Assembly (NCBI GenBank): GCA_019843655.1
Contig: JACDQD010000102.1
Span: 6,643,501-6,707,500, forward strand
Direction: 5' to 3'
DNA: 64,000 nucleotides
DNA from: Lethocerus indicus
Taxonomy: Eukaryota > Arthropoda > Insecta > Hemiptera > Belostomatidae
Shown here: one piece after another, positions 269 to 44,793 of the stretch
Layout of the letters: each line of letters opens with the position of its first letter
How positions within the stretch are numbered: position 1 is the stretch's first letter
The notes under the pieces: generated by a model
The model's database searches: none
Seen by the model: only the letters and a program-made list of their open reading frames with translations
Told to the model about the DNA's origin: nothing
Made by a program: the position numbers and the translations under genes

Positions 269-904
269 AATAATAAAAAACAATCCAACTTTCGTTCTCT
301 ACTATGTATGACCGGGAAAGTCAGCGTTAAGAATCGATTAATTATCGATTCCATAAAATTTCGTTTTACTAATGAAATTTGAAATAAATACTTATTTGGT
401 AACGCAATCGAAGGTTTTAACAAATATAAAAATTCAATACAGAAATAGATTTAAACGGAGTGTTCCAAATAGTCATTTTATTTCTTTATACATAAAAATA
501 AATATAACTAAGTTATTAACAAGTACTATATTTTTCATAATGATATATTGCGTCGGATGGTATTAGAATCATAAAATAAATGAAAAAGGTAAACTGGCAG
601 GCATAAAAGGTATATAAAATCTAATAAATAATATTATCGATATTTTTTATTCCCTAATAACTGTAGATGTCAGTAGATGAATATACAGAACATATAATAA
701 ATAAATATTTTATACTATAATAATACTTGGCAATTCTTATATAGAATATTTTCTTAAAGAAAACATTCGTAATTACTGAAACTTCGTGATTTCACACTGT
801 TGTTGACATAGAATAATGTTCGAGGGAATTGTAACCTTCTTGTTTGTGCTTCTGCGTGTAATATATTAAAATCTGAGGATACGCAAGTATTTTTTTCATT
901 TAAT
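269..904. promoter_or_regulatory. Divergent intergenic region between LTO1-like and PQBP1
   Basis: About 640 bp of AT-rich sequence separates two start codons that point away from each other, so it must hold both promoters and both 5' UTRs. I see no clear TATA/initiator pair or coding exon in it. Short ORFs here (for example around 372-566) have no recognisable content. Confidence 0.5.
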
Positions 905-20646: not shown

Positions 20647-22536
20647 TTATTCAGAGACGTTGACAGATATAGTTTTGCCTTTTGGATCATCAAATCTGTC
20701 CATTGTGCGAATATCCATAAGCATTGTCATTGCCCATGTGAATATTAATGCCAATATGAAAGTGACAAAAAGTGCAGACCATATGGGAATTGTGAAGAAT
20801 GTATCTGTGTCCTGTGCTTCACTGAACCTAGTACTATATGCCCAGGGTTGTGTCTATAAAAACAATAAATGGTTTTATTTTTATAAATAGATAAATATAT
20901 ATCTTTACACAAATACATCGACAGATTTTTGTTTTTAATACTAAGTTATCAAAATTTCCATTGAGTTTGGTAAGCCTGTTTCATTCCTGTATAATCAATT
21001 CTTTTTTTAATTCAAAAAGATAGTGAATAACATTATGTTTACCTGTAAGTTTTTGAAAACAAGTCTAATTGGTCCATTTGTGAACTCAACAGGTCCAGTG
21101 CTTTTAAATGATTTATTCATTGGTGCAGAAATGTCTGTGTTCGCCTTAAGCATTATTTTTTCAGCACCTTTATCATATTCAACTTCTCTTAACTGCCATG
21201 ATTTTTCAGATTTCTCAAATCGAAAGCGTAAAGTCAATTTCTTGTTTCCTACCAAATGGCTGGTAGTAACCCTGAGCAATAACTCACGTTGATCTGGGCG
21301 CTGAAACAGTAAATCAACATCAATATATAGTTCAATGAAAAGTATAAACTATATATGAACTATATAAAATAGAGCAAATAAATATGATGATGTATAAAGA
21401 ACAAATAAATTATATGAAGAATTTTGTTAGAATTAAATCATTCAATAATTCTGTTATTTACTTGAATTGTATGAAAATTAATATATATATTATTGATCAC
21501 ATTTATAATAAAAGCTAAGGATGTTAAACCAAGGATATAGATATATACTTGAAGGAAAGACAATTAACTAATGATCAATAAAATAAGATATTAAAAAATG
21601 GCTACATGTTTAGCAATAAGCAAGTGGGTGTGGTCTTTACCTCCTATTTAATACTAGCATTTATTTAAGGAATGAAAAACACATTTCAGGTCACTGTTTC
21701 TTACTTCTCATAAGAAATAAGAAAAGTTAAACTAACTGTTAATTCTATATCTAAAAAAAGTCTGAATTATAACACAGAATGCTACTTACAACTTCATACG
21801 ATTTATTTTCAAGGGGATATGTTTCATTTCCATCAATCAATATTGGGTATTTTGAAGAATATAAAAGAGCAATATTTTCTGAATTCAATAAATACTCGGA
21901 TGTTGAATTATCATCTTCAATATCTCTCCTCACTCGGTTAATTTCTGGTTCTACCCACGAGCTCTGTTTTCCAGTGAATACTGCTACTATATGACTATGT
22001 TTAGCCAATAATTGGCTGTATATTTCAGCAATATTCCCATCGTGCCTTCTTAACATGTCTGGCCTGTCTTCATTGCTTAGAGGATCTTTAAGTTTGACTT
22101 CTAGAATGACACCTGGTTTATTAGGCAATCCAGATCCATCAAACTTCTTCCATTGATAGTTCTGTCCAACCTCTAATTCTTTTAGAGAACTCAATGGGTC
22201 ATCTACTGAAGGAATGAATTCTATTTTGGCAGACATACTTGTGATATTTTGCAACTGAGGGAAGGATCCATGGTGCTGATCGTCCTGCCAGCTGAAATCC
22301 TCGACACTCAAGCTTTCCTCAAGGAAAACTGCAATTAGTGGTTTAAGAACATGTACCTTTTTCACTAAATGATTTGAAAACTCATCGGTGTCAAGTTGCA
22401 TCAATGCAGGAACGGTATCCTCCTTTTCGCTAATAGCGCTTGATTCCCATATTAACACAGGAACACTACAAGAGCAGGTAGATAATATAGAAAGAAGGAA
22501 AATACATTTGTAATAATTACACCCCGAAAAAGCCAT
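20647..22536 (-). CDS. ATP6AP1: V-ATPase accessory subunit S1 (ATP6AP1 / Ac45)
   Basis: Three coding exons, 22536-21790, 21300-21043 and 20853-20647, all joined in phase 0, give 403 residues. A signal peptide begins MAFSGCNYYKCIFLLS. A furin-type cleavage site RVRRD lies at about residues 201-205, as in the family. The middle exon forms the beta-rich luminal domain. The last exon has the single membrane helix (IWSALFVTFILALIFTWAMT) followed by the short conserved tail MLMDIRTMDRFDDPKGK. Ac45 is a V-ATPase V0 assembly and targeting subunit of endomembranes and secretory granules. Drosophila VhaAC45 has a similar length; human ATP6AP1 is longer (about 470). The gene is divergent from the Mud/NuMA-like gene with 536 bp between start codons. 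Confidence 0.92.
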
Positions 22537-23072
22537 ATTTTTCGATCATATGTCACCAAAAGTAGGAGTGACCTGCACAGAACACTCCAAGGCCTTCTAC
22601 GTTCCGAAATATCAAAATGTCTCAATCTCTTTACACTGTTGGTAGTATTATTAATGCTATTGTACATTTCATTACATACGAAATAAATCGAAATTCGAAA
22701 TTTAAGGATTTAAAGGAAGTAGAAGGTTTAAGAGATGTTTATTATTATTATTATTATTGAACGATGTACACATGTTTTTATCTGGGTATATTAACTATAT
22801 TTTATACATTTTTAAGTATTGGACAATAGAATATTATTACTACTATAAAATTAATTTTTTATTTTATGAATACAAGAAATTATATTACATAGTACATTGC
22901 GCCAATGCCATTAACGAATGGCGACGTAACGGCTTTCCCTCTCAACAATCTCAACGGTTAATTCTGTCTGAATTTTCGGTTGTCAGTGGTTTATAGAACG
23001 ATATGTGACTAGAGGTACCATTTTAGACTGAAATAAAATACGTGAGTTATTTGCCTTCATTTAGATTGAAAA
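22537..23072. promoter_or_regulatory. Divergent promoter region, ATP6AP1 / Mud-like
   Basis: The interval between the two outward-facing start codons is 536 bp, including a (TTA)n run near 22738-22757. No coding exon is visible. It must contain both 5' UTRs and presumably a bidirectional promoter. Confidence 0.5.
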
Positions 23073-25290
23073 ATGAAAGTAGGCGACTGGCAGAACGTTA
23101 TTATTTCTTGGGTATGTTTATATTTTGATATGAATGTTTATCCTTATAACAATAATTGTTTTATACTTCAAAATTGTGCTTCAATTATCTTCCATTACAT
23201 TTAGTATTTAACGGGTTATTGTGCATTTAAATCATTTATTTGTGAAACTTCAATTATCTAAATTTCAGTTATTTTCTGACATAACCATTGTTTAATGATT
23301 TTTATTAGTACATGAATAATATGTACTACATCAGTTTCTTTAAATTATATGAGTTTCAGAATGGCGTGGCTGAGTCAATGCACATATCCTCTTATTTGTT
23401 ACATTCATTTAGTTTCCAACATAATGAATTACGTTGTCATAATTTTCAGGTAAATGCTTTAAGATTAATTGATGAACCCATATCTGATATACTAGATCTT
23501 CTTGATGGATTATTTTTCAGGAAGCTTTTGGATCAATTGTAAGTTTTTTGTAGTAAAAAAGAAATATAGTGAATTGAGCCAGTAGAGTACTAATGAATAG
23601 AATTATAGCTAAATATTATTTTAATAATTTACAGAGGTAATGAAGAAAATTCACTCAATACAGAAAAAGAAAAATGCAGCGTACTTGAACAAGTTGAAGT
23701 TTTCCTCAGAAGTTTGTATTTTTTTGTTTAATAAATCCATTTCCAATTATATATTAAATGCATAATATGTATGGTATAATAATGTAGTATTATTTTATTT
23801 AATTACTGGACTTACTAGTTACAATAATGCCAAGCATAAATAGTTTAATAATGACATTTTAATGCCTTAAATTTATAACATTCATGGTTTGTAATGTTTG
23901 TCATATTTTTTTTCTAGTAATCTTATTACTTTTTTCCTAGGTGAATACCCAGAATATAAGTATTTTTCGTGGGACAGTGATTGTGTGACTCTTATTGCTT
24001 CAGTATTGCTTGCTCATGCTTCTTTGGTCACAAAAGACTCTGGTCATCTCCATACACCTCTTTATTCATTAACACATATAACGCAATGTGTAATACAATC
24101 ATTTTTGGAGAGTTTCTTGGAACTTCCAAAACCTTCGATCACACCAAGTCTCATATTGCAGTATATTCTAAATATAGGTAAGTGTTTTTCTTGGTACTAA
24201 AGCCTTGTATCATTAATTTCAATTGTTTTAGCATATTAAAGGAAATGGAGAGTATTTGTTAAACTTTTGTTAATGATATATCACATATTAAGAAGATTAT
24301 CTTATAGTTTTACATTGCTATAATATCACAGGAATATTCCTTTTCATAAACATTTATTGCATTTATTTTAATAAACTGTTCATGTGCAAAAGTGCCACCA
24401 TTGGGTGACTTCTTTTATCTTACCTATCATGTCAATCCTCATTACTGTCATATCATAAATTGTACCTATTACCAATGTAGGTTGATTATACAAAATAAAA
24501 ATGATAAAAAAAATTTTAATAAAAATTTAATTTGATTTTTTTGGCACTGTAGCTTGAATGAATTCTTTTAAATATAATTGAGATCAGATACATAATATTT
24601 GTTAATCACCTTTCTTCAATTGTTATTTATCTTTAAATAAGTCACTGAATATTTGTTTCATTTTATTAAATTAGTTTTATATAAAGGTTTGAACAATGAT
24701 ATTTCCTACATATATGTATGCATTATACGTGATAACATAGATGTTGGCTTTAGGAGGTTTTTAATTGCATAAATAATGGTATAATTTCTTCAAAAGTGGT
24801 AAAGACTTTTTTGTCAATTTTTTTAATATAACAGAACATTATTTCTAAATGGAAAAACTCACACTAATAAGACAGAGCAGTAATAATTACAACAAATAAT
24901 ATTTTTGTTATAGATAACGAAATGGAAGAAAAGCCAGATATTAAATCATTGGACGTATTATCACCTCATGTACAGGTATTAAAATATTGATTTCAGCATA
25001 GGTAGACCACTTTTCTCAATGTTAGGTGTAAAAGTTGTTTGTTATTATTCTAAATTCATTTCTACACAGAAGTATTAATAAATAATATTTAATGTTTGTA
25101 TGTTCTGTAGCTTGTACAACATTGTATAATAATTTTTATAAAATTCTTTTTTAGTCTCCATTTTATTTGGGAAAGAGACCTTCATCATCAGAACTTCATG
25201 CTCTCAGGAATAAAGTTGATCTACTTACATATGAGAAATCTCATCTAATAGAAGACCTGGAAACTGCAAAATTTGATATTTCTAACTTAC
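23073..25290 (+). CDS. mud: Mud-like head: globular N-terminal domain and start of coiled coil
   Basis: Six exons in phase encode about 213 residues. MKVGDWQNVIISW joins to VNALRLIDEPISDILDLLDG and FFRKLLDQL, then SEYPEYKYFSWDSDCVTLIA and helical leucine-rich segments up to LQYILNI. This matches the layout of the NuMA N-terminal Hook/CH-like fold, which in vertebrates contacts dynein-dynactin. The sixth exon (SPFYLGKRPSSSELHALRNK) starts the heptad region. Confidence 0.7.
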
Positions 25291-28200
25291 GTACGTATGT
25301 GTATGTGTGTACAACCATGTGCACATACATGTGTATTTAACCAACTATATATACATATACAATACGGATAAGGAATGTTATTATAAACTATTAGTATACC
25401 ATACATTATTTCTTCACAGTCATCCTGTTAATTTATTAGCTGAAGCAGACCAAAAGGTGTTGCAAGCTAGTATTGTAGGATTCCACTGTGTTTAATTTAA
25501 ATCCAGTGTTAAATGTTTTTGAATTTTCTGTAGTACATTAAATTTTTGTACATTGCATGTTGTTTGTTTAAAACTATATGAAATTTGAGGGTAATTATAA
25601 CTACAGTTCTTTGTATTATATTTATTTGCTATAATAATTATATAAAATTAGACTTTTATAACAAATACAATGGAATAGGTCAAAATGTCTCTGAAATTCC
25701 AACTGATCATTGGATATGTAGTCGTGAGAGTGTGTATTTGGGAGGGCAATGTGAATGATTTTAGATTCTTTTATTTTAGATTTGTTCATTTTAGATATAT
25801 TTGTGTGTGAATGTATTTTTAAAATTTGTTTAAACATTATTTGTATTATTTTTACCTATATTTATGAATTACCCTATAATATCTGTTTTTTGTTGCATGT
25901 AGGAAGTGAACTAAACAGGAAAGATCAAGAAATTCTGAAACTGGGTAATGAGCTATTTATGAAAGAGTGTGAAACTAAAGTTGGGGGTGGAAGGAGAGAA
26001 AAGAGAAGATCAACTGGTGGGGGTGGGTCATCAGGAATTGCAATAGTTTTGGCGAGGGAAAGGAAGAAACATAAAGAAGAGATTGAAACAATGGAGAAAT
26101 GCAACTCTGACCTTAGGACTGAATTGACTATAATTAAGAGGAATAATTCAGATCTTCAATCTAACGTATGTACAAATTCTCTGTTATTTAAATACAGCAT
26201 TTAGTACACATACATGTGTTGGGATTAGGGGTTTAAGGAGTTATCTATATTCATACTGTGTCCTGTTATTGATAATAGAATATCTTGATAGAAGATACCT
26301 TTTTCTAAAATTTTGTTCAGGATTCTGAGCTGTCCTCAGTGAATAAAGCTAGATTAAACTTAGATATTATCAATTAGGGAATATCAAACATTTATACATG
26401 TATTTCATGTGCTTGTTTGTCTGTGTGTAATTTGGGTGTGTACAAATGTACTTTACAGACTATTAGTTTTCACATTTTAGCTACTTAGCTCTACTAAAAT
26501 GAATGAAACTATAATTGAAAACATCAATTGTTTTAACCTGTTATTATCAGTCAAGCATTATTTGAAGTTAAAAAATAAATATTTTTCATTGACAAAAAAC
26601 ATTAATTTTTCAGTGTTCACACCTGATTTTCATGAGGCTGTGTTATTTGTTTGTAGGTTTGAGATATGAATATATATGATAAATTATTAGTTCACAAATT
26701 TTATGATAAATAGCTCTACAACCTGGTTCAGGGAACTTCTGTGTTGAGAGTTTATTGTTAACATGTTAAAATCATAGTTATCACCCCTTTCTAAAATGAA
26801 TGAAACCAGAAAATAAATATCTTGGATGAAACTTGAAAGATTCAGGAATTTCTTTATAACATTTCAAAGTAATCAATATCTTATAGATATCTTCTCTGGA
26901 GAAAGAAACTGACCGTTGGAGGTTAAAGGCAGAAGAAAATGGTAACAGACATCTGTTAATGATGTCCAGGGTTACCGAACTGGAAGGAGTTGTTGCTTCA
27001 CTCAAACAAACTTGTGAGGTATGTCAGTTATTATTATTGTCAGTATTAGTACTAAATATTAATTTTATCATTTTTAATTTAATTAATACCCAGCATTCCT
27101 CCTCTGAAGTAACTAATTAATAAATTATTGTTCTGTTGCAATGTGTATTAGCATTGTATTATAAATTATTTCATAACTAATAGGAACAGAGACAGTTGAT
27201 TGAAGAAAAGAATTCAAAAGATATGAATGACAGTTCAAATCTTACAGAAGAAATCTTGACTGAAACAATGGCATCTGTTGTTGAACTACAATTCTCTGAA
27301 TTACAACAGCAATATGCTATACAGGTACTTATTTCTTCATACTGTTAATGTAAAATTATTTATTTTTCTACATTTATTTTCTTTCCTTTAATTCTAGGTA
27401 AATCTAGTTATAAGTGTTGTAAATACTGTTATGAAATTTAAGGTTTAAATTAAATCGTGATACAGGTGTCAGAATGTTAGTTGTATTATTTTGTTCCATA
27501 TTATTTCAATCTTAATAATATTAATTATTAGACATTTTTTTTCAGAGAAATGAACTTGTAAAAAGTAGACAAGTGCATCAAGAAGCATTAAGTAAGATAG
27601 ATTCATTGTTGTCATTAATTAATGATAAAGATAGTGATATTAAGGATCTTAAAATTCAACTCTCAGAATTGCAACAGCTGTATGATATCCAGGTATTTAG
27701 TTTGTAGTACAATATTGTAAATTATTAATATTAAGTCTATTTCGTCTGACAACAAATAGAGGTGTCCTCTTTCATGGGGCTTTAAAATCGCACTGTAGTG
27801 CAAATACGTTTATTGTATATTACTATTATTAGTTTCATATTGTATTTTTATGATGTGTCATTTTTTATATTAATCTTTGTATATAAACTTCACTGTAATT
27901 TATTTTCAGACAAATGAATTTTTAAATGAAAGAAAATTGTATCAAGAAGCATTAAGGAATGTTGACTCTTTAAATAAAATAATTAATAATAAAGATGGTG
28001 AAATTAAGGGTGTAAATAATCAATTCTCAAAATTACAGGAATTGTATGATGTTCAGGTATTGATTTCTCTAGAATATTATTATATATTACTACTATTAGT
28101 TTCAAATAGTTTTATATCTCATATTGCATTCATCTTTTAATGTATTTAATATACAGTAATTTATTTCCAGACCAATGAACTTTTAAATGAAAGAAAATTG

Positions 28201-31200
28201 TATCAAGAAGCATTAAGCAATGTTGACTCTTTAAATAAAATAATTAATGATAAAGATGGTGTAATTAAGGACATTAAAAATCAATTCTCAGAATTACAGG
28301 AATTGTATCATGTTCAGGTAATGAAATTTCTAAGAAGATGATTGTATATTATTATTATTAGTGTCATGTATTTTCATGATGTCTCATCTTATATTAATCT
28401 TTGAATTTATTTCATATACTGTAATTTATTTTCAGACAAATGAACTTTTAAGTGAAAGGAAATTGTATCAAGAAGCTATAAGGAATGTCGACTCTTTAAA
28501 TAAAATAATTAATGATAAGGATGGTGAAATTAAGGGAGTGCATAATCAATTCTCAAAATTACAGGAATTGTATGATGTTCAGGTATTAATTTTTTAAGAA
28601 AATTATTGTATGTTAATATTATTAGTTTCAAATACTTTTATGATGTCTCATATTGCATTCATCTTTGTATTTAATATACAGTAATTTATTTCCAGACCAA
28701 TGAACTTTTAAATGAAAGAAAATTGTATCAAGAAGCATTAAGCAATGTTGACTCTTTAAATAAAATAATTAATGATAATGATGGTGAAATTAAGGACATC
28801 AAAAGTCAATTCTCAGAATTACAGGAATTGTATCATGTTCAAGTAATGAAATTTCTAAGAAAATGATTGTATATTATTATTATTAGTGTCATGTATTTTC
28901 ATGATGTCTCATCTTATATTAATCTTTGAATGTATTTAATATACTGTGATTTATTTTCAGACAAATGAACTTCTGAGTGAAAGGAAATTGTCTCAAGAAG
29001 CTATAAGGAATGTCGACTCTTTAAATAAAATAATTAATGATAAGGATGGTGAAATTAAGGGAGTGCATAATCAATTCTCAACATTACAGGAATTGTATGA
29101 TGTTCAGGTATTAATTTTTTAAGAAAATTATTGTATGTTACTATTATTAGTTTCAAATAGTTTTATGATGTCTCATATTGCATTCATCTTTGAATGTATT
29201 TAATATACTGTAATTTATTTCCAGACAAATGAACTTTTGAGTGAAAGAAAATTGTATCAAGATGCATTAAGCAATGTTGACTCTTTAAATAAAATAATTA
29301 ATGATAATGATGGTGTAATTAAGGACATTAAAAATCAATTCTGTGAATTAAGGAAATTGTATGATATTCAGGTAGTGAAATTTCTAAGAAGATGATTGTA
29401 TATTATTATTATTGGTGTCATGTATTTTCATGATGTCTCATCTTATATTAATCTTTGAATGTATTTAATATACTGTGATTTATTTTCAGACAAATGAACT
29501 TTTGAGTGAAAGAAAATTGTATCAAGAAGCTATAAGGAATGTTGACTCTTTAAATAACATAATTAATAATAAGGATGGTGAAATTAGGGACATTAAAAAT
29601 CAATTCTCAGAATTACAGGAATTGTATCATGATCAGGTAATGAAGATTATTGTATATTACTATTAGTTTCAAATAGTTTTATGATGTCTCATATTGTATA
29701 ATCTTTGAATGTATTTAATATACTGTAATTTATTTTCAGACAAATGAACTTTTGAGTGAAAGAAAATTGTATCAAGATGCATTAAGCAATGTTGACTCTT
29801 TAAATAAAATAATTAATGATAAAGACGGTGAAATTAAGGGTGTGAAAAATCAATTCTCAGAATTACAACAATTGTACAATTGTCAGGTAATGAAGATTAT
29901 TGTATATTACTACTATTAGTTTCAAATAGTTTTATGATATCTCATATTGTATAATCTTTGAATATATTTAATTTCACGGTAATTTATTTCCAGACAAATG
30001 AACTTTTAAGTGAAAGAAAATTGTATCAAGAAGCACTAAGCAATGTTGACTCTTTAAATAAAATAATTAATGATAAGGATGGTGAAATTAAGGACATTAA
30101 AAATCAATTCTCAGAATTACAGGAATTGTATCATGTTCAGGTAATGGAATTTCTAAGAAAATGATTGTATATTATTATTAGTGTCATGTATTTTGTTGAT
30201 GTTTCATATTGCATTAATCTTTGAATGTATTTAATATACTGTAATTTATTTTCAGACAAATGAACTTTTGAGTGAAAGAAAATTGTATCAAGATGCATTA
30301 AGCAATGTTGACTCTTTAAATAAAATAATTAATGATAAAGACGGTGAAATTAAGGGTGTGAAAAATCAATTCTCAGAATTACAACAATTGTACAATTGTC
30401 AGGTAATGAAGATTATTGTATATTACTACTATTAGTTTCAAATAGTTTTATGATATCTCATATTGTATAATCTTTGAATATATTTAATTTCACGGTAATT
30501 TATTTTCAGACAAATGACCATTTGAGTGAAAGGAAATTGTATCACGAAGCACTGACCATTGTTGACTCGTTAAATAAAATAATTAATGATAAGGATGGTG
30601 AAATTAAGGGTGTGAATAATCAATTCTCAGAATTACAGCAACTGTATCATGTTCAGGTATTGATTTCTCTTGAATATTATTGTATAGTACTACTATTAGT
30701 TTCAAATAGTTTTATGATATATCTTATTGTATAATCTTTGAATGTATTTAATATACTGTAATTTATTTTCAGACAAATGAACTTTTGAGTGAAAGAAAAT
30801 TGTATCAAGAAGCACTGACCAATGTTGACTCGTTAAATAAAATAATTAATGATAAGGATGGTGAAATTAAGGACATTAAAATTCAATTCTCAGAATTACA
30901 GGAATTGTACAATGGTCAGGTAATGAAGATTATTGTATATTACTACTATTAGTTTCAAATAGTTTTGTGATATCTCATATTATATAATCTTTGAATATAT
31001 TTAATTTCACTGTAATGTATTTTCAGACAAATGAACTTTTGAGTGAAAGAAAATTGTATCAAGATGCATTAAGCAATGTTGACTCTTTAAATAAAATAAT
31101 TAATGATAAAGACGGTGAAATTAAGGGTGTGAAAAATCAATTCTCAGAATTACAACAATTGTACAATTGTCAGGTAATGAAGATTATTGTATATTACTAC

Positions 31201-34200
31201 TATTAGTTTCAAATAGTTTTATGATATCTCATATTGTATAATCTTTGAATATATTTAATTTCACGGTAATTTATTTCCAGACAAATGAACTCTTCCAGAG
31301 CCAGACAAATGAACTTTTGAGTGAAAGAAAATTGTATCAAGAAGCACAAACCAATGTTGACTCTTTAAATAAAATAATTAATGATAAGGATGGTGAAATT
31401 AAGGACAGAATTACAGGAATTGGTTGGTACAATTAGTTTCACTTTGAATGTATTTAATATACTGTAATTTATTTTCAGACAAATGAACTTTTAGTGAAAG
31501 AAAATTGTATCAAGAAGCATGTTGACTCTTTAAATAAAATAATTAATGATATGGTGAAATTAAGGGTAATCAATGGAATACTATTATTAGTTTCAAATAG
31601 TTTTATGATTTCTCATATTGTATAATCTTTGAATATATTTAATTTCACGGTAATTTATTTCCAGACAAATGAACTTTTGAGTGAAAGAAAATTGTATCAA
31701 GAAGCACAAACCAATGTTGACTCTTTAAATAAAATAATTAAGGATCAGGATGGTGAAATTAAGGACATCAAAAATCAATTTTCAGAATTACAGGAATTGT
31801 ATCATGTACAGGTAATGAAATTTCTAAGAAGATGATTGTATATTATTATTATTAGTGTCATGTATTTTCATGATGTTTCATATTGCATTAATCTTTGAAT
31901 GTATTTAATATACTGTAATTTATTTTCAGACAAATGAACTTTTAAGTGAAAGAAAATTGTATCAAGAAGCTATAAGGAATGTTGACTCTTTAAATAACCT
32001 AATTAAGAATAAGGATGGTGAAATTAAGGGAGTGAATAATCAATTCTCAAAACTGCAGGAATTTTATGATGTTCAGGTATTAATTTTTTAAGAAAATTAT
32101 TGTATGTTACTATTATTAGTTTCAAATAGTTTTATGATGTCTCATATTGCATTCATCTTTGAATGTATTTAATATACTGTAATTTATTTCCAGACAAATG
32201 AACTTTTGAGTGAAAGAAAATTGTATCAAGAAGCACAAACCAATGTTGACTCTTTAAATAAAATAATTAATGATAAAGATGGTGTAATTAAGGACATCAA
32301 AAATCAATTTTCAGAATTACAGGAATTGTATCATGCACAGGTAATGAAATTTCTAAGAAGATGATTGTATATTATTATTATTAGTGTCATGTATTTTCAT
32401 GATGTTTCATATTGCATTAATCTTTGAATGTATTTAATATACTGTAATTTATTTCCAGACAAATGAACTTTTGAGTGAAAGAAAATTGTATCAAGAAGCA
32501 CTGACCAATGTTGACTCTTTAAATAACATAATTAATAATAAGGATGGTGGAATTAAGGACATTAAAAATCAATTCTCAAAATTACAGGAATTGTATGATG
32601 TTCAGGTATTGATTTCTCTAGAATATTATTGTATATTACTACTATTAGTTTCAAATAGTTTTATATCTCATATTGTATAATCTTTGAATGTATTTAATAT
32701 ACAGTAATTTATTTCAGACAAATGAACTTTTAAATGAAAGAAATTGTATCAAGAAGCATTAAGCAATGTTGACTCTTTAAATAAAATAATTAATGATAAA
32801 GATGGTGTAATTGAGGACATTGAAATCAAATTCAGAATTACAGGAATTGTATCATGTTCAGGTAATGAAATTTCTAAGAAGATGATTGTATATTATTATT
32901 ATTAGTGTCATGTATTTTCATGATGTTTCATATTGCATTAATCTTTGAATGTATTTAATATACTGTAATTTATTTCCAGACAAATGAACTTTTGAGTGAA
33001 AGAAAATTGTATCAAGAAGCACTGACCAATGTTGACTCTTTAAATAACATAATTAATAATAAGGATGGTGGAATTAAGGACATTAAAAATCAATTCTCAA
33101 AATTACAGGAATTGTATGATGTTCAGGTATTGATTTCTCTAGAATATTATTGTATATTACTACTATTAGTTTCAAATAGTTTTATATCTCATATTGTATA
33201 ATCTTTGAATGTATTTAATATACAGTAATTTATTTCCAGACCAATGAACTTTTAAATGAAAGGAAATTGCATCAAGAAGCATTAAGCAATGTTGACTCTT
33301 TAAATAAAATAATTAATGATAAAGATGGTGTAATTGAGGACATTAAAAATCAATTCTCAGAATTACAGGAATTGTATCATGTTCAGGTAATGAAATTTCT
33401 AAGAAGATGATTGTATATTATTATTAGTGTCATGTATTTTCATGATGTTTCATATTGCATTAATCTTTGACTGTATTTAATATACTGTAATTTATTTTCA
33501 GGCAAATGATCTTTTAAATGAAAGAAAACTGTATCAAGTAGCATTAAGCAAAGTAGACTCTTTAGCTGAATTGTCTAATGGTAAGGATAGTGAAATTAAG
33601 GATGTGAGACATCAATTGTCAGAATTGCAAGAACTGTATGAAGTTCAGGTAGAAATTGTTTTAGAAGTTTATTGTATATTATTATTATTATTATTAATTT
33701 CTTCTATCTGTTTCTGTTCAATGGAAATGTTTCATATTTATAAGGACCTATTTTGGGATTATTTTAATCAATTCTGACAATTACGAGGGTAATAGATGTG
33801 GAAAGATAATTATCATTTATTTTATTTTTCATATAGATTGCTTTGACTCGATTATATTGTTATGTGGTATTTGATATGTCGTTATGTGTATGGAGAAGGT
33901 TTACCTAAATTAGTATTATTTTTATTATTCATAATTTATTATCATATATTGTAATAACTTTGCATGTACCTTCATTTAAAGTAGTTATGTTTTATTATTT
34001 GCTGCATTGGTATTAATTATATCTATTTTAGTATTCTTTAAGTATTTTTATTATGTATATTAATCGTATAATATCTTTATTTATCAAACAATTTCAGAGA
34101 AATTCACTTTTAAACAAAAGCAGAGAGTATAATAAAGCATTAAGCAAAATAGATTTATTATCTAAGTTGAGTACTGATAAGGAGTCTGAAAATAATGATG

Positions 34201-37200
34201 TTGCAATACAATTGTCAGAATTGCAAAGACAATATGATGCTCAGGTATTTATTTTGTAGCATAATACTGTGAATTGTTATTAGTGTTTTCATTTCTGCAT
34301 ATCCTCTCATTTGAGTAATGGATTTTTTATGTACATCATGTGACTGGAATACTAATGTATAATAATCTTGCTTAATGGGCAATTTAATTAATGGGCTTTT
34401 TTCAGACTATTCAACTTGTAACAGAAAAACAAGTATATCAAGAAGCATTAAACAAAATAGATGCATTATCCTTGATGATTAATGGTAGGGATGATGAAAT
34501 TAAGAATTTAAAAAATGAAATAGAAAGTTTAACTTTTGCAATATCTAAAAAAGAAACTGATATAGAGAATTTAAGAAGTGATGTGAAATATCCTTCGAAT
34601 GATATGGTGGTCAAAATAAAACATGACACGCAAAATAATATGACTGACATTTTATATGATGTATACAAATGGAAGCTTAAATTTATAGATGTAAGCAATG
34701 ATAACAAGGGAATATTAAATCTTTTGAATGCCCTTGAACATGAATTAACACTGAAGAAAGAAATAGTATTTGAATCAGAGGGTACCTTTAATGAACATAG
34801 TACTGTCAGTGAAAGTATGAATGAAAACAACCAAGTCTTCAAGGAGAATAAAGTGGGTGAATTATTAATGACAATTGAAAAACTAACATGTGAAAGGCGT
34901 ACTTTAGAGGAAGACAGATCTGAAATAGAAAAGAAATTTGCTTCATTATCTTGTTCTCATATTGAAAAAGAAAAGAAAATTGATGACCTCAATTTGAGGC
35001 TTCAACAACTTACTAAGGAGAGTGAGGAAAAGACCTGTCAGTTGGATAAAGTTTATGCGGAATTAGATGAACTTAAATTAGATGTGTTAAGAAAGGAAAC
35101 TGAGTTAGCTAGTCAAATTTACAAAGTTAATAGTTTGAAGGAAGAACTTTCACACCAATCCAATGTACTGTCAGAATTGATGCAGAATGTACAAATGTTT
35201 GAACATGAAAAAGTTATTCTGGAGAAGAGGATAGATATAATGGGCACTCAACTTCAAGAATTGAATAGGTACTTGTTCTAGCAATGTTCTATACCCGTTC
35301 TAATTTCAAATGACAAATTTTTGTTACACACTCTATGGTAACAATCAATCTGTTAGCGTATGAATTATGATAACTTATGTTAGATCAATAGACTGAATAT
35401 TAAACCATGTTTTCAGCTTGAAAGAAAAACTGTCAACCTTGGAATCTAAATGCTCATACACAGAGACCTTGCTAAAAGAAGAGAAAGAAAAAGTTACACT
35501 ACTTATTTGTCAGGCTACTGATGAAGACAAAATTAGGAGTGGATTCTATCTAAAAATTGGCTCCTTGGAAAAACATTTAGTATGTTTAAAACATATTTTA
35601 ATTATTTTATTTGAAATTAATTTCTTTTTTTTGTATCTTTGCATTATCCTTTTTCGGGTGCATGTTTTTGACGATTGTGTTTTCATTCATAATTAACTGC
35701 TGTATTTGATGATGATAGGAACAGACCCAGTTGACAGAGGAACAGTATTCAAAAGATATGAATGACAGTACTAGCTCAAGCCTTGCAGACCGGGGCTTGA
35801 CAGATTCTGCAGCTTCTGTTACCAAACAGCAAGGGCCAGAATGGCAACAGCAATATGATGCTCAGGTTATTACTTATTAATAGCATTATTATTATCCCTT
35901 TGTTTCTTCCGTTTGAGTTTTATTTAAGTTTAGAAGTTGAACTTCTCATTTATATGTATTTTATAATTTATTATTCTTTATTTTGTAATCACACATCCAC
36001 TTCTGTTATTATAAGAGCTGTTGTGTGGTAACTGGTAAATATCTATTTCCCTTCTGAGAGCTTCCCAAGGATGTCTCTGGCAGATCTGGCCTTATCCAAA
36101 GCAAATACTTTTATGATTAATGTGGGCATGGGTAAACTAATCAATATCAAATTAAAAAATTGAGCTTTTTCAAACTCATTTTAAATTTCTGTAGTGAGCA
36201 CAATTACATTATGTACAGTTTCGGATTATACAGTTAGGACTTGTTTAATTGGCTATGGTGCACGGATTTCATAAAAATATATTTCCACTACTGTATGATA
36301 TGATATGCATGATAGTTATATTTGGTTAAGTGTAGACCTGTGTGGAGTTATAGGAAGTTTTCACATTTTAATATATTTATCTATAATGTTTGTGTTAAAG
36401 GTCTATCATTAGTATATATTATTAATTGATATCATAGGTGTTAACTCTTTATAAAATAAATGAATCCAAAAGATGGATTGGACTTGGAGAATCAACGCAT
36501 TTATATATGATGCTACAAAATAATCAGTATCTATTACAGGTATCTTCTTTGAAGAAAGAGACAGAAACTTGGAGATTGAAAGCAGAAGAAAATGAAGACA
36601 AACTTTGGTTTATGGTGTCCAAGATTTTTGAACTTGAAGAACTTGTTTCTCTCAAACAAACCTATGAGGTAAGCTATATCCTTAAAATTCAGTAAATTGT
36701 ATTAAATTCAATTAACTTTATCATAAATTACATTACTGTTGCATCATTTTTATTTGAAGTAACATCCTGTAAACCCTTAATATGGCTGTTCACTTCAGAA
36801 TCATATTTTTTTGTAAGGTTTAAATTTTAAAGGTTCATATTTTTCAAGTAAGTATTATATAAGTACAAATAAAAGATGTTTGTTCTTTCACTATATCCTT
36901 TTTACAGTTCTGTAAGTCCTAATTATTAATTACATTTTATAAACAACAGGAAAAGAAACTAATGGTAGAAGAAAATAATTCTAAAGATATGAATAACAGT
37001 TCCAACATTGCGGGAGTGGACTTGACAGAAAAGATTGTAAATAATGTTGATTTACAACAGCAATATTTCAATCAGGTATTTATTTTACCTACTAATAATA
37101 TTGTACATTATTATTTCAATTCTTTATTATCAGGTATTTATTGTGTTTGCTATCATTTCTTCCATCTGTCATTTCTGAGGCAATTGTATATTTGTTATGG

Positions 37201-40200
37201 ATATTTCAGTTTTTTAAATATTTCTTTGTTGATAGTACTGTTTATAAGGCATAATTTAATAATGTATTATTATTTATTGAAATTCCTGTTAATTTAATTA
37301 ATCCAAATGATATTTTTCAGACAAACAAATCTTTAAAATATAGAAAAATGTATCAAGAGTCATTAAACAAAATAGATGCAGTATCATTAGTGATTAATGA
37401 TAAGGATAATGAAATTAACCTTCATGATAAGAATAATGAAGTTAAGACAGCTTCAGCGAGTATTAATCTTGATATGTACAATGAGGAGACTGAGAAACAT
37501 GAATTAAGAGGTAATGTATAAAAACAGTGAGAGCTCCAATATTATGAGAAATTTGAAAGATTTGTAATTCAGAATCAGCATTATTTTGTAGAGCAAAAGA
37601 GTATAAAATAAACTAAACATGATATTATTATTATTCATTATTTAACCTTTGCGCTCGAGCAATAGGTCTCTTTCAGAATCACTATCTATTATTCGTCAAG
37701 CCAAACCTAAATAAACATTGTTATCGTTCGATTTATCGAATTGATCTGAGTGGTGCCTGAGAGACATCTCTCAAGTGCAAAGGAATATGAGACACCATTA
37801 CTTGTGTTTAATATTAAGAAACATTTGTATGGTATGGGTAATTTTTATTCTGACTCTTATATTTAAACCTAATTTGAGTACTATCAGGAAATTAATTTCT
37901 ATAAAACATATTGTTTATCATACACAAGTATGATTTATTAGTTCTCAGTTATACTTGAGTCATTTTGAATGTTTTAGATTCCGCATTTTGAAGGTTTGTT
38001 CAAAGGCTCATTTATGTATTCTTCTATATCTGTTTTTTGGTTGCATGCAGGAAGCGAGATAAACAGGAAAGATCAAGAAATTCTGGACCTGGGTAATGAG
38101 TTATTTATGACACAGTGTGAGAGTATGGTTGGAGGTGAAGCAAAGGAAAAGAGAAGAGCAAATGGTGATGATGGGTCATCAGGAGAGGCAATAGCATTGG
38201 TGAATGAAAGGAAGAAGCATAAAGAGAAGGTAGAAACCATGGAGAAGTGGAATTCTGATCTTAGTACAAAATTGACTATAATTAAAAGGAATAATTCAAA
38301 TCTATCTTCAGAATTGTCTACGTTTTCTAAACATAGTTTGTAATATATAAATTTACTCAATCCAAATTATTTTTTCAGGCAAATGAACTTGTAAAAGACA
38401 GGCAAATGTACCAAGATGCATTAAACACAATTGATTCATTATCGATGTTGATTAGTGTTAAAGACAACGAAATTAAGAATGTTAAATTACAACTATCAAA
38501 ATTGCAACAGCAACATGCTATTCAGGTATTTATTTTGTTATAATATTTTAAATTATTATTTCACTTCCTCATCACTGTTGTCCGAGAGAATTTTATATTT
38601 TATGCGTATGAAATATTTATAAATATGTGCAAAGTGATACCTATTTCAGTTTGTTGTTTATATTATTTCAATAATTAAATATTATTTATTCTAGAAAATC
38701 AAAACTGTTAAAGATAGACAACTGTATCAAGAAGCTGTAGACAAAATTGATTCATTATTGATATTAATTAATGAAAAGGATGATGAAATAAAGAATGTCA
38801 AACATGAATTAGAAAGTTTGACTTTTGCAGTGTCTAAAGAAGAAACTGAGAAACAGAAATTAAGACACGATATAACAATTGCTGAAGCAACTCTTTTAGA
38901 AATTGTAAGCAGGATAAGAGATCTACATTTCAGAATTAGTTCCATAGTTTCAGCTCAGAACGATAAAATAAACAAAAAAGATTTGGTAGAACATGTAGAA
39001 GAAATGACATTATTATTTTTGATTGGTACTATTAAGAAACATTTGAATGACATAGTACTTGAGGTAGAAGATGGCCAAAATAATATGAGTGACATTTTAT
39101 ATGATGTATACAAGTGGAAGCATAAATTTATGGATGTAAGCAATGATAACAAGGGTATATTAAATCTTTTGAATGCCCTTGAACATGAATTAACACTGAA
39201 GAAAGAAATAGTATTTGAATCAGAGGGTACCTTTAATGAACATAGTACTGTCAGTGAAAGTATGAATGAAAACAACCAAGTCTTCAAGGAGAATAAAGTG
39301 GGTGAATTATTAATGACAATTGAAAAACTAACATGTGAAATGCGTACTTTAGAGGAAGACAGATCTGAAATCAAAAAGAAATTTGCTTCATTATCTTGTT
39401 CTCATATTGAAAAAGAAAAGAAAATTGATGACCTTAATTTGAGGCTTCAACAACTTACTAAGGAGAGTGAGGAAAAGACCTGTCAGTTGGATAAAGTTTA
39501 TGCGGAATTAGATGAACTTAAATTAGATGTGTTAAGAAAGGAAACTGAGTTAGCTAGTCAAGTTTGCAAAGTGAATAGTTTGAAGGAAGAACTTTTACAC
39601 CAATCCAATGTACTATCAGAATTGATGCAGAATGTACAAATGTTTGAACATGAAAAAGTTATTCTGGAGAAGAGGATAGATATAATGGGCACTCAGCTTC
39701 AAGAAGTAGATAGGTATTTACTAGATTTTCTATTTCTGCTACCTAATTATCATCCCAACTATTGTTATAGTGTTTGAGATTATTACTTTACCAGTGGAAC
39801 ATGTGGACATTTCACAGAATAAAGTAAAACATGATGAGATAGTAGAATAAAATAGAAAATTATTTAATACTTTACTAAAAATTATATATCTTCTATATAC
39901 ATTGTGTAAACGAATGAAATGGAAGTAGAATTTTAATATAAATTAGTCATAAATCAGCCACAGTTCCCAGTTGCACAGTTGCCATAAGGTCTTGTCTCTT
40001 ATTGATTTATGTTAAAATGTTTCCAGCCTGAAGGAAGAACTATCAACTCTGAAATCTAAATACTTACATGTGGAGACTTTGTTAAAAGAAGAAAAAGAAA
40101 AAATTACACTTATTAATTGTCAGGCAACTGATGAAGACAAAATTAGAAGTGGATTCTATAGAAAACTTGATTCAATGGAAAAGAAATTGGTGTGTGTAAA

Positions 40201-43200
40201 ACTGCTCTTTTCTATTTTTTGCCTTTAGACTGTTTTCTCATAATATAATTATTTTCTGCTAAAACAATTATTTGTCTTAGAAAATGGAGTTTGAAGAACA
40301 TTTGCAAGAAGTTACAAAGGAATATGTTGACAAAATTGAACAGTATAAAGAGAAGGTATTTTATAATTGGTTTTATTGGAATTTTTAAATTTGTCTTTAT
40401 TTGTGTATCCATTCACACAACCCAATCCTTCCCCACAACCTTTACCATGGCACTTTTTTGACACCATCCTCCAGGGTCACTATACTATAGCTTTATATTT
40501 TTCTCTATTGCTTGAAAATATTTATATATTAATATATGTGAATATATATTTATATTGAAAAAATATAATATAAATACTTAAAGGTACTCAAAGATCAAAT
40601 GCATATTGAAGAATTGAGTTCACAATTATGGGAAGCAAGTGATAAGTTTCTGGTTTGTCAACAGCAAGTAGAATCACTAAGGGGTCAATTAGACAAAGTA
40701 AGAGTTCAAAATCAACTTTTGCTAAATGACTTAGCTCATCAAGTAAGTTAGTTTCATATCAACAATAATAAATTTTGTTGTACATTGTCAAGTAAAGAAA
40801 TATGTTTTTAAGATTTATTTCTATATTCATTGATTCTCAATTTTCTAATCTCAATATGATTTTTACTGTAGAACTTGATGTCGGCACAACAGAGGAGCAT
40901 GTCTTTGCAGCATATTTCGTGAGTAACCTATTAATTTACCAATAATTACTGGTTTATAGATGTTACATGTATCTATAAATTCATTTGTAAAATTAACTTT
41001 AAACATTACTAACTATAATTTATTATGCTAAAAAAATGATTGGAAAAAGATGTTATTTACATATTCTGGTATATAAATTCTGAACAACAGTTATAATGCA
41101 TTTTTAACATAAAGTTCAAGTGGTGCTGGTGTGGATAATTTGGGTTGTGAAGAATTATTAGACGATATCATGATTGAGAAGAGGACTGCGATTACTCCTC
41201 ATATTGGAGTCTCCAAACCAAAGTTTTCACTTTTATCAGGTGTAGTAGAAGTATACTTAATAATAAGTGCAATAAAAAAAGTACTTCTCATTAAATAAAA
41301 ATATGTTAATAAAATAATTGTAATTTAGTAAGATGTGATTCTATGAAAAATGTTCAGGGGTCTAAGAATTAATGAATTCACATAATAAGACATTATCTGG
41401 AAATTTATCACCTATTTGTGTTGCATTTAGGAAATAGTCAATTTCTTTTTCATTACTGCTTGAAATAGTGAATATTTTAATGAAATATTACTTCACTCAA
41501 AGATTATAATTAATTAATTATAACATGACTTGTTTTTAATGTGAAACTATGATTTATTGGTATGAACTTTGTTGCAGTTAAATTCTAATTTATGTTTTGT
41601 ATTTTCTTCTGGTCATTTGTTTTTATCCGATGTATTATCTTGGTTTAATCAACATAAAATGATTTATGCATTTGATTAGGTAAAGTATTCCCAACTGCTG
41701 ATGAAGAAGAAGTATTTGATGAAAGATGTCTTGCGGACCTCAAAGCTGGAATATGCCGAATCCCGCGCATTGGATCTAATAAGCGTTCCTCTTGTCCACC
41801 ATTACCAAAGGTGTGGATTTGTGGAATTAAAGCTTTATTTTGTCTTATTTCTGAAATATTTGTTTGTTTGTGAAACAATATATTGTTTTTCAGGTTGCAA
41901 AAAAAGTAAATAAGGTTAATGACACTGAATGTCTGATTCCTGCAGATAAACCAAAGAAACATAAATTACAGGTGACATTTTTGTTCAAATAATTATTTAA
42001 TTACGCATGAAAATTTGTTTAAATTTGTGTCATTTGCATTTATCATTTGTGCATGATAACCAGTTTTGATGCATGTTTCTCATTGGTACATTATATACAT
42101 ATGCTTTAAAAAAATGTTATCACCCCAGAAAAATAGTCCTTTGTTGAATAAGCACAGTTTTTAATAATAACATTAACAGTTTTATTATTTTAGTTTATTA
42201 GTTAATTTCTTAGCACACAATTGAACTGAACACAATAGTTTGGCTGCACAGTACATAGTCCTGTCATCTCGAAAAATGCATTATGTGATGTCTTAGTGTA
42301 CTTTAATATATTTATAGTGGTGTGGGTTGTTTACAGATAGTGTACAGAAAGCCAGGACCTCCTACTCCTTGTAAGAATTCAGGCAGACTCTCTCTTCAGG
42401 TGAATATCTGTTATAAATAGGGACAATAGATATATTTCACATTTATTTCTTGTAGATATAAATGTGCATGAATGAATACGATAGAAAGATGCTTCAGCAC
42501 AAGTTCCATTTTTACAAAATTTGTTTACACATGATTAGTTACTTGATGGATTTAGGTATACCTTAGATTTTGTGTTTTATTGTCTCCTCTCGCTGGTTTG
42601 CCTTTTGCTAGGCTGGTTTCGGCTGCTTATAATCTTCAGTTGCGATATTAGTCACTTTGGCACTTAGAATGTTTTTTGGGCATTCTCACTGCACTGTCAC
42701 TGTCACTTGTACTGTGATGACTAACACCGCTACTGAAGATGGCGAGTAGCCGAAACCGGCCTAGCAAAAGACCAAACTAGCGAAAGGAGACAGAAACACA
42801 CGAAATCTAAGGTATTCCAACACCTCGCAAACTACAAAACAGTTATTCTAAACGACTTAGGTATAGTACAATGTAGTTATATGGCATCATGCATATTGGG
42901 ATGAGTAGTGAATTGAACATCTGCAACATTTTTTCAGTCTGTTGGTTGTGTTTTACTTCGTCCGTTTTCTGTAATTGTGATTTATCTAGATATACCCTAA
43001 AATGTACAAATTGTATTTCAAGCTAAATTTATTTATTATTCTACAAATTTTATTGTGTTAGTGTTTAATGTTGTTTTTATTTATTACAATTTCCCCTAAC
43101 TGTATTAATGTTAATAATATTAATGTTTTATCTTTAATTATTGATTTATATTAGTCTTACAACTGAAAAAATGGGGATTCACATAAGAATGGTGGAATAA

Positions 43201-43384
43201 AAAAAATAAAATACTAATAAATATTATTACAATTATAAGAGAATTATTATGTGTTTCAGGGTAATGCCCAATTACCTGGAGGATCTAGTTCAAGTACAGA
43301 TAAAAAGCAACCAAGCACTCCTCAGAGGAAAATCAAGAGTCTTTTCAGTTCTAAACACAAAGTACAACAGGTGCTTTATACATT

Positions 43385-43451
<67 letters not shown>

Positions 43452-43583
43452 TAGATATGCATTTCTATTTTAGACCTTAATTCAATTATTTGATTTTAGG
43501 ACACACCACATTTGACACCACGTAACAGAAGATTGAGTTTTTTCCAGAGAAAATTTGGAAATCGTGAAAATGTTCCACCTTGA
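23073..43583 (+). CDS. mud: Giant coiled-coil protein, NuMA/Mud-like
   Basis: About 50 exons giving roughly 2,800 residues if all intact exons are used. Head exons: 23073-23111, 23450-23538, 23635-23711, 23941-24177, 24914-24975, 25155-25290. Then 25903-26165, 26887-27018, 27184-27324, the tandem array 27546-34244, and 34406-35268, 35417-35579, 35719-35865, 36540-36668, 36950-37075, 37321-37510, 38051-38229, 38379-38525, 38695-39713. Tail: 40027-40189, 40281-40355, 40584-40742, 40872-40918, 41115-41239, 41680-41810, 41894-41971, 42337-42399, 43260-43370, 43500-43583. The head reads ISWVNALRLIDEPISDIL, like the globular N-terminus of NuMA; a long coiled coil and a basic Ser/Thr-Pro tail follow. 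NuMA/Mud tethers dynein at the cell cortex and spindle poles through LGN/Pins. The family call rests on the head, overall architecture and tail. Another large coiled-coil scaffold remains possible. Confidence 0.75.
25903..27324 (+). CDS. mud: Mud-like module 1 (exons B, C, D)
   Basis: Exon B 25903-26165 (SELNRKDQEILKLGNELFMK..., with a G/K/R-rich insert), exon C 26887-27018 (ISSLEKETDRWRLKAEENGN) and exon D 27184-27324 (NSKDMNDSSN... LQQQYAIQ). Each has a diverged second copy further downstream: B at 38051, C at 36540, D at 35719 and 36950. This shows a multi-exon segment was duplicated within the gene. Confidence 0.75.
31281..31424 (+). pseudogene. Damaged array exon 15
   Basis: Starts after TTTCCAG like its neighbours but contains a small internal duplication of the exon start (a second ACAAATGAAC at 31305). 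Later a 17-nt deletion removes the segment that normally encodes IKNQFS. The frame shifts, no normal CAG|GTA donor remains, and the following intron is also truncated. Probably non-functional, or skipped in the mRNA. Confidence 0.75.
31479..31565 (+). pseudogene. Damaged array exon 16
   Basis: Has a good acceptor and starts TNELL-like, then deletions of 1, 8 and 4 nt and loss of the 3' half. A possible donor at AGG|GTAATC would leave an 87-nt in-frame remnant encoding KHVDSLNKIIND. It could be a shortened exon or a decayed copy. Confidence 0.65.
32718..32861 (+). pseudogene. Damaged array exon 21 (frameshift and stop)
   Basis: Compared with its near-twin exon 23 (33240-33386), this copy lacks one C in the acceptor tract, one A in the GAAAGAAAATT run, and two further bases near the 3' end. 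Length is 144 nt. The first deletion shifts frame and brings a TAA after about 14 codons. All changes are small deletions near homopolymers, so an assembly error is as likely as real decay. Confidence 0.75.
34406..35268 (+). CDS. mud: Mud-like long coiled-coil exon F (first copy)
   Basis: An 863-nt exon (phase 0 in, phase 2 out) ending GAATAG|GTACTT. Its first ~49 residues (TIQLVTEKQVYQEALNKIDA...) are a diverged array unit. The rest is continuous coiled coil with segments such as DVYKWKLKFIDVSNDNKG and LEEDRSEIEKKFASL. Positions from about 34641 to 35268 match 39086-39713 at a constant offset of 4,445 with no indel, though the preceding part is diverged and shorter than in the second copy. 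Confidence 0.8.
35417..38525 (+). CDS. mud: Mud-like module 2 (duplicated exons G, D', C', D'', E', B', E'')
   Basis: Exons 35417-35579, 35719-35865, 36540-36668, 36950-37075, 37321-37510, 38051-38229 (donor uncertain) and 38379-38525. They are diverged copies of the exons upstream of and inside the array: 36540 repeats the TWRLKAEEN motif, 36950 repeats NSKDMNNSSN, 38051 repeats GSEINRKDQEILDLGNELFM, and 38379 is a full 147-nt array-type exon standing alone. The exon at 38051 reads into a TAA at 38341 with no phase-0 donor at the place homologous to module 1. An earlier AAG|GTAGAA at 38229/38230 would keep the frame. Confidence 0.65.
38695..39713 (+). CDS. mud: Mud-like long coiled-coil exon F' (second copy)
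   Basis: A 1,019-nt exon (phase 0 in, phase 2 out), 339 full codons. It begins KIKTVKDRQLYQEAVDKIDS, an array-like unit, and continues as coiled coil. It carries about 52 residues (around RIRDLHFRISSIVSAQND and EMTLLFLIGTIKKHL) missing in the first copy. The last ~630 bp are nearly identical to the first copy. Both copies end with a similar donor and are followed by homologous 163-nt exons (35417 and 40027). Confidence 0.8.
40027..43583 (+). CDS. mud: Mud-like C-terminal tail exons
   Basis: Ten exons in continuous frame. Coiled coil ends around QVESLRGQLDKVRVQNQLLL (40584-40742). The tail then becomes Ser/Pro/Lys-rich. Exon 41680-41810 has EEEVFDERCLADLKAGICRI and SNKRSSCPPLPK, similar in position and style to the conserved NuMA block that reads NRIAELQQRN...CPPHLK. 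Exon 42337-42399 has RKPGPPTPCKNS, exon 43260-43370 has QPSTPQRKIKSLFSS, and the last exon ends TPRNRRLSFFQRKFGNRENV. TPCK and TPQR fit the CDK consensus S/T-P-x-K/R, consistent with mitotic control. The stop is at 43581-43583 and AATAAA at 43592. Confidence 0.75.
42551..42836. repeat. Foldback (inverted-repeat) element in a Mud-like intron
   Basis: Two arms of about 85-100 bp are reverse complements: left CTTTTGCTAGGCTGG... and TTTCGGCTGC; right GTAGCCGAAACCGGCCTAG and CAAAAGACC. The centre contains CACTGTCACTTGTACTGTG. The half copy at 2350-2530 shares arm and centre. It behaves like a non-autonomous mobile repeat (MITE or foldback type). It lies in the intron between 42399 and 43260. No protein is encoded. 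Confidence 0.85.
43390..43447. repeat. (CA)n(TA)n microsatellite in a Mud-like intron
   Basis: A CA run followed by about 48 bp of pure TA, right after the exon ending at 43370. Confidence 0.9.
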
Positions 43584-43591
43584 ATAACATA

Positions 43592-43597
43592 AATAAA
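43592..43597 (+). terminator. Mud-like polyadenylation signal
   Basis: AATAAA 9 bp after the stop codon, and further AT-rich candidates follow (for example near 43931). Confidence 0.45.
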
Positions 43598-44793
43598 TGT
43601 TTTGTGTATATATATATAAATAGATTGGACCCGTTAATCTTTATTTTTCTCTTTTAAAGCTTTTCTCATGTTCCTGCAAGTTTAACCAATGAAAAAATTG
43701 TATATTGTGGTTTTAATTTAATAATTTCTTCAAAATGGGGATGAAGCACTGCATCCCTTTTTGTCCTTTTTATATAAATTGTCTTACATCTTGTATGTAA
43801 CATGTGAAAAATTGTTAATATTTTGACTGTTTATATTGTATTGTGATATGTGTATTTTTACTTTATAATTTAAAAAATTGTATTTAATTAAATGTATACT
43901 GTTAATACTTTGTTACACTAATTAAATGAAAATAAATTAATGGAATTAAAATTGCTTAATCTAATGTCAAGAAATTAATTTTCTCATAGTCACAGCCAAA
44001 AATTTCATTTTCATATTTGAGTTATTTATTATTATTTTAACTGAATGTGCTTATATCAAAATAAACGATGATACACTATATGCTTCTAATTAAATGTCAT
44101 CATATTTGATTCTGATTTTATTTTGTTTAATTTACAATAATAAATGGTATCATTACAATGATCAATTATTTGACCAAAACTATAAATAGCATTCTTATTA
44201 GTTCACTCAAAATTCAGTTTGTATGACCTACACGCCTACATTACATTAAATAAATCAACATTTTTAATATAATATATTTTCGTACTTTATTAGTTATATT
44301 ATATTTATAAATAAAGATTTAAGATCGCCATCGGCACGTTATCCTTCACCCCATTATATACTAAGTGGAAAGAAAGTCGTAGTTTCCCTTTTTTCGATAT
44401 ATGTGGAACTTGATCTAGGAAACGCAAATATCTTTAATACTCTTTAATTTCCATTTTGTTCATTTTACTGAAAGTGTTCGGCATTAGTGATTTTACGTTT
44501 AATGCTGCAAACCTAAAGTAGATAGTGTGGTGTTGGTAGTTAAAAACGTAATTAATGCAAATTACTTCTCTTGGAACAAAATGTAATTATTTTGTACAGG
44601 AAGGTTTGTTCAGGATTTTTTGTTTTTGTTTTAAGAAAATAGACATTATTCACGGTTATGTCCGACTCTTGTGAATATATAATGTATTGCGAATAATATT
44701 GTATTCATAGGTGTTAGTTATTCCCTTCCCCCCTTAGGTATAACCTTCCCTGAATCGACGTTCTGTAGGTTTCTTTTATGTTTATATGTTAGA
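43598..44793. other. Intergenic: Mud-like 3' end to DNA ligase IV start
   Basis: About 1.2 kb, AT-rich, with no coding exon recognised. The part from about 44330 is less AT-rich and likely includes the ligase IV promoter and 5' UTR. Confidence 0.6.

Follow-up and report, generated by a model that had tools for sequence, protein, structure and literature searches.

A tandem array of 147-nucleotide coiled-coil exons in a NuMA-like gene of Lethocerus indicus

The exon array and its heptad unit

A 64,000-nucleotide (nt) stretch of the Lethocerus indicus genome (Hemiptera, Belostomatidae; assembly GCA_019843655.1, contig JACDQD010000102.1, positions 6,643,501 to 6,707,500 of the forward strand), hereafter the window, contains a predicted NuMA-like gene in which 25 tandem copies of one 147-nt exon lie in a row on the plus strand (27546-34244), a copy number that depends on the accuracy of the assembly. 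With one copy as query, nhmmer returned 30 plus-strand matches at E ≤ 10. These comprise the 25 consecutive array copies (each with an E value of 3.5e-7 or better) and five matches 3' of the array, at the start of an exon at 34406 and then at 36438 (E 7.9, not significant), 37330, 38382 and 38707. Base-level annotation identified 22 of the 25 copies as exactly 147 nt long, preceded by AG, followed by GT, open, and in phase 0 at both ends; damage is seen in the other three, whose starts are 31305, 31479 and 32718. The original prediction for this DNA had proposed 22 intact and three damaged 147-nt copies with phase-0 ends, and nhmmer and the annotation confirm it to the base. Tandem Repeats Finder described the same stretch as 13.4 copies of period 254 (score 4538) and 8.0 copies of period 265 (score 2940). 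With this independent recovery of the array, a chance origin of the repeat is ruled out.

Copy 1 (27546-27692) is an intact, diverged edge copy. It is followed by copies 2-14 (27910-31173), all of which are intact and start at 27910, 28171, 28436, 28696, 28961, 29225, 29490, 29740, 29994, 30256, 30510, 30773 and 31027. Two damaged copies, 15 (31305-31478) and 16 (31479-31664), precede the intact copies 17-20 (31665-32605; starts 31665, 31930, 32194 and 32459). Copy 21 (32718-32861) is the third damaged copy, 144 nt long with intact splice sites and four internal in-frame stops. Copies 22-24 (32980-33648; starts 32980, 33240 and 33502) are intact, copy 24 being another diverged edge copy, and copy 25 (34098-34244) is intact and the most diverged of the edge copies. 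The introns between neighbouring intact copies from 2 to 24 measure 103-118 nt. Exon length is invariant in the 22 intact copies, while these 17 introns take eight different lengths; longer introns follow copy 1 (217 nt) and copy 24 (449 nt). The 22 intact copies comprise 19 distinct DNA sequences and 19 distinct peptides.

The unit of 147 nt encodes 49 amino acids, or exactly seven heptads. Across the 22 intact exons, hydrophobic residues occupy 95% of the cells at heptad position a and 57% at position d, compared with 2-45% in the other registers (g highest), and the 3.5-residue periodicity of the array consensus was equalled by only one of 5000 shuffles. AlphaFold2, run on an alignment of 23 exons (the 22 array exons and a related exon at 38379), predicted a single helix over residues 2-48 with a mean pLDDT (predicted local distance difference test) score of 95.2, for a single folded exon rather than a dimeric rod. 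The earlier claim that the array encodes rod segments therefore holds. The exon at 34406 opens with 49 codons of array type, and the heptad register, judged by eye, continues into it. Since each intact copy has phase-0 ends and consists of whole codons and whole heptads, any number of copies preserves both the reading frame and the heptad register.

The NuMA-like host gene and its neighbours

The host gene was modelled on the plus strand at 23073-43583 as 50 exons encoding 2802 amino acids, omitting the damaged copies; the splice sites chosen for it are GT-AG. All of its exons join in frame and phase, and the sole stop in the translation is the terminal one. For the exon at 38051, the donor (model position 38229) is a guess. 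In this region, 38051-38343 is a paralogue of the exon at 25903-26165, has no phase-0 GT donor at the homologous place and reads into a stop.

Exons 1-4 (23073-24177) encode a hook-domain-like N-terminus. The Pfam profile PF21670 (HOOK_N_NuMA) is the sole family found at E ≤ 0.1 for residues 1-155; it matches over profile positions 5-65 of 152 (E 1.1e-4) with 22.4 bits, under the curated cutoff of 27. The best PDB sequence match of the N-terminus is human NuMA (6qja, E 0.032). Three coiled-coil exons lie 5' of the array (25903-26165, 26887-27018 and 27184-27324), the last of which resembles an array exon at its end, by eye. On the 3' side, the exon beginning at 34406 extends to 35268 and is followed by a lone, diverged array-type exon (37321-37510; nhmmer E 0.034), a lone 147-nt array-type exon (38379-38525; E 1.1e-8) and a long exon (38695-39713) that is a paralogue of 34406-35268 and likewise begins with an array-type segment. 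The 3' exons (40027-43583) encode the end of the coiled coil and a basic, non-helical tail. A long central coiled coil is thus present in the model, as judged from heptads and the predicted helix for the array exon and by eye for the other rod exons.

No Pfam family matched the last 213 amino acids of the model at E ≤ 5, and the LGN-binding/NLM motif, searched as a sequence pattern in all three frames of the plus strand over 39701-44600, was not found; the model may lack an exon. Isoforms without the C-terminal LGN/Pins-binding region occur in fly and human, according to the available portion of one study (PMC4300151). The original prediction had called the gene Mud/NuMA-like. The N-terminus is indeed putatively of NuMA type, but the name rests on a hook match below the cutoff; with no Pfam match and no recognisable NLM or LGN-binding motif in the tail, we call the gene NuMA-like rather than a proven Mud orthologue.

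Just downstream of this gene lies a single-exon DNA ligase IV gene (44683-47454, plus strand) with Pfam DNA ligase domains and a BRCT domain. Its best match is from Ranatra chinensis (58% identity over 89% of the query), a member of the Nepomorpha within the Heteroptera; the next named matches include many Hemiptera at 45-51%, and Cimex, also a heteropteran, at 37%. A search of a phage collection with the ligase region gave no match and was uninformative. Other genes in the window include a two-exon class C G protein-coupled receptor (58535-60358, plus strand; Pfam 7tm_3), which may be bride-of-sevenless-like, and a V-ATPase accessory subunit S1 gene (21007-22545, minus strand; Pfam VAS1_LD at 21007-21348). 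A 310-amino-acid open reading frame (ORF) at 812-1744 (plus strand) has a WW-domain match that is weak (E 6e-4) and under the cutoff; it may be PQBP1-like. Scanning the window for Rfam families and tRNAs yielded nothing.

Duplication within the rod and the damaged copies

The interior exons (copies 2-23) share 83-100% DNA identity among themselves, compared with 72-80% identity to the interior for copy 1, 76-81% for copy 24 and 64-71% for copy 25. Unequal crossing over yields arrays whose interior is homogenised and whose edges are diverged, and we infer that this process shaped the present one. Mean unit identity peaks at lag 2 (90.8%, n=14), whereas lags 1 and 3-12 give 83.3-87.8%. Therefore, two-unit blocks were duplicated, and the copies are related as alternating blocks of this kind. 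Exons 9, 11 and 14 share one sequence and exons 20 and 22 another, and there is no substitution between units 20 and 22.

The remaining rod is likewise built by duplication. The stretch 25860-26155 matches 38010-38303 (82%), 35397-35592 matches 40009-40202 (80%), and 34631-35274, which lies largely in the exon 3' of the array, is 97.05% identical over 644 nt to 39076-39719 in and around its long paralogue. This last block appears to be a recent duplication or gene conversion inside the gene. Diverged copies of rod exons are also found in 35719-37510, with those at 35719 and 36950 like the exon at 27184, that at 36540 like the exon at 26887, and that at 37321 of array type. They are apparently remnants of another internal duplication. 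The paralogous stretches that flank the 97% block are only ~80% identical.

Copies 15 (7 indel events, 3 substitutions) and 16 (8 deletion events, 3 substitutions) together differ from their nearest units by 6 substitutions and 15 indel events, 14 of which are deletions. In the same comparison, made with lenient gap costs that also generate false indels, 149 substitutions and 30 indel events were counted for 18 intact units. So many deletions with so few substitutions suggest that copies 15 and 16 are consensus errors rather than old pseudo-exons. Copy 16 retains an 87-nt open, phase-0 stretch (31479-31565) ahead of GTAATC. The case for a consensus error is less clear for copy 21, where 6 substitutions and 4 indel events are found alongside retained splice sites. 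If real, the damaged copies must be skipped, or else the protein would be truncated.

Probable serial inclusion and its alternatives

We lean towards an explanation in which a seven-heptad exon and its downstream intron were copied, mostly as two-unit blocks, by unequal crossing over in the rod-coding part of the gene, and in which all or most intact copies would be joined in series within one mRNA. The rise of a coiled coil is 0.1485 nm per residue. The array would then add about 22 x 49 = 1078 residues, roughly 160 nm, between a putative N-terminal hook domain, predicted to be of the dynein-binding type, and a basic C-terminal tail. Gain, loss or skipping of copies would change rod length in steps of ~7.3 nm, leaving frame and register intact. 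Variety in rod length, which the original prediction had raised, may thus arise through splicing or through copy number. We consider this cumulative inclusion of heptad cassettes in a NuMA-like gene somewhat probable, judging from the DNA, because the cassettes hold seven heptads each, their splice scores are typical of the gene, the introns exceed 100 nt and no discrete docking/selector pairing was found.

The use of the copies is addressed by several measures. Array donors score 8.79 compared with 7.25 for 26 other donors of the gene, and array acceptors 6.71 compared with 6.17 for 27 others, with scores trained on exons that we ourselves picked and chose by GT-AG. In 19 core exons, 69 or more changes have created no stop by substitution, where ~6.5 stops would be expected without selection (Poisson 0.0014), in a count made on copies selected as intact, with the three damaged copies excluded. 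The dN/dS of the array exons, 0.33 (NG86, 171 pairs), also speaks for use. The limits given for the splice scores and for the stop count weigh against serial inclusion, as do the following observations. When omega is calibrated on the substitution spectrum of the introns themselves, it is 0.50 with a bootstrap range of 0.26-1.09; since this range includes 1, we put weight on the constant exon length and the absence of substitution-made stops. Pairwise difference per base is 10.8% among the exons and 10.3% among the introns, so that the exons are not the more similar of the two. Copy 21, should it exist and be included by way of its intact splice sites, would end translation by its stops. Homologue searches of limited sensitivity, drawing on capped, word-based candidate lists, found no relative that has such an array: the first 1812 residues gave one match, of unrelated domain make-up, among 7985 candidates scored, and ORF 38695-39777 gave none among 4886. 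Finally, of four candidate docking introns, one (34245-34405) outdid 58 of its 60 shuffles in pairing with the introns of the array, and a second (27693-27909) outdid 56 of 60.

Such pairing bears on mutual exclusivity of the Dscam type, with a single array copy per transcript. Mutually exclusive arrays usually require competing pairing, a frame conflict, or introns too short for splicing. The present array has their usual anatomy of homologous exons in tandem, equal in length and in phase, as laid out in the accessible part of a review of such genes (PMC6071210). Duplex energies were computed for the four candidate introns, with 60 dinucleotide shuffles each (every third intron), and set against 63 non-array intron pieces. 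The pairing of 34245-34405 is diffuse along whole introns, and its energy (-38.8) is less than one standard deviation from that of the non-array pieces (-33.0, standard deviation 6.2); the other three candidates lie within half a standard deviation of this control. Thus, discrete docking/selector pairing was not found for any of the four introns in this comparison. Introns of 103-118 nt also suffice for ordinary splicing, inclusion of multiple copies costs neither frame nor register and creates no frame conflict, and choice among similar 49-residue pieces (19 distinct peptides) would add little diversity. With gene-typical splice sites as well, Dscam-like exclusivity is unsupported and in our view quite improbable. 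The original prediction had left mutually exclusive and cumulative use side by side, and of the two we favour the cumulative one, on the strength of the heptads, splice scores and introns.

The other alternatives concern how many copies are used, and how many exist. Subsets of copies may instead be skipped by tissue or stage, so that one allele would give many rod lengths. Symmetric phase-0 exons permit any subset, the three damaged copies would need skipping if real, and isoforms of Drosophila Mud and human NuMA do differ in function, but they do so at the C-terminus rather than in rod copy number (PMC4300151, in the excerpt available). As the array splice sites are no weaker than those of the rest of the gene and no regulatory element was identified, we regard such alternative cassettes as possible and clearly less probable than serial inclusion. 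It is rather unlikely that the array, while existing, owes its copy number, order and damaged copies to assembly or consensus errors. The indel-rich profile of copies 15 and 16, so unlike that of the intact units, would fit such errors, and so would the substitution-free units 20 and 22, whose two-unit alignment has its differences concentrated in and around copy 21. Against this, the interior copies are mostly distinguishable, with 19 distinct exon sequences among 22, the surrounding gene is coherent, and errors of this kind would shift the count by a few and leave an array in place. Least probable of all, to the point that we give it hardly any credence, is a decaying by-product that is mostly skipped, the working protein joining 27324 to 34406 or nearby. 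Three damaged copies and flanking exons that are both in phase 0 would suit it, but the frame, length and splice sites kept in 22 of 25 copies are unexpected for a neutral tract with variable introns.

Comparison with known systems

The spindle-orientation scaffolds NuMA, Mud and LIN-5 share with this gene a long coiled coil and a basic tail, and its candidate hook-like N-terminus has NuMA as best Pfam and PDB match. In contrast to them, the rod here is partly coded by tandem exons of equal length, the model reaches 2802 amino acids, and no LGN-binding/NLM motif was found in it. Human NuMA has 2115 amino acids and a rod of about 207 nm, according to the available text of PMC8047419, and the coiled-coil lengths tabulated in an excerpt of PMC5082667 are 1487 amino acids for human and 1774 for zebrafish NuMA. 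Among the matches listed in a search of the open-licence literature, we saw none that describes an array of exons in NuMA or in Mud.

A more speculative proposal, which we hold to be doubtful, is that the rod serves as a cortical force arm of adjustable length. Within this lineage of bugs, a NuMA-type rod would be set in seven-heptad (~7.3 nm) steps through the germline number of copies, with splicing perhaps contributing, and individuals, species or tissues would differ in arm length. If true, this would provide a natural allele series with register-keeping steps, and hence a direct test of whether NuMA rod length matters. It would also show tandem exon duplication building long coiled coils without loss of register.

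Like Dscam-type clusters, as described in the part of PMC6071210 at hand, the array consists of many tandem homologous exons of equal phase with short introns. Unlike those of Dscam, its exons code for whole heptad blocks that are compatible with serial inclusion, and no discrete docking/selector pairing accompanies them. In nebulin, the PEVK region of titin and fibrillar collagen, phase-symmetric exons, each encoding whole structural repeats, are joined in series. The array exons resemble these in being phase-symmetric (22 of 25) and made of whole codons and whole structural repeats; they differ in belonging to a putative mitotic scaffold, in having very similar neighbours and exactly seven heptads per exon, and in their signs of recent two-unit duplication. 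The gene structure is real and unusual, and is best read as a variant of this known serial arrangement of structural-repeat exons.

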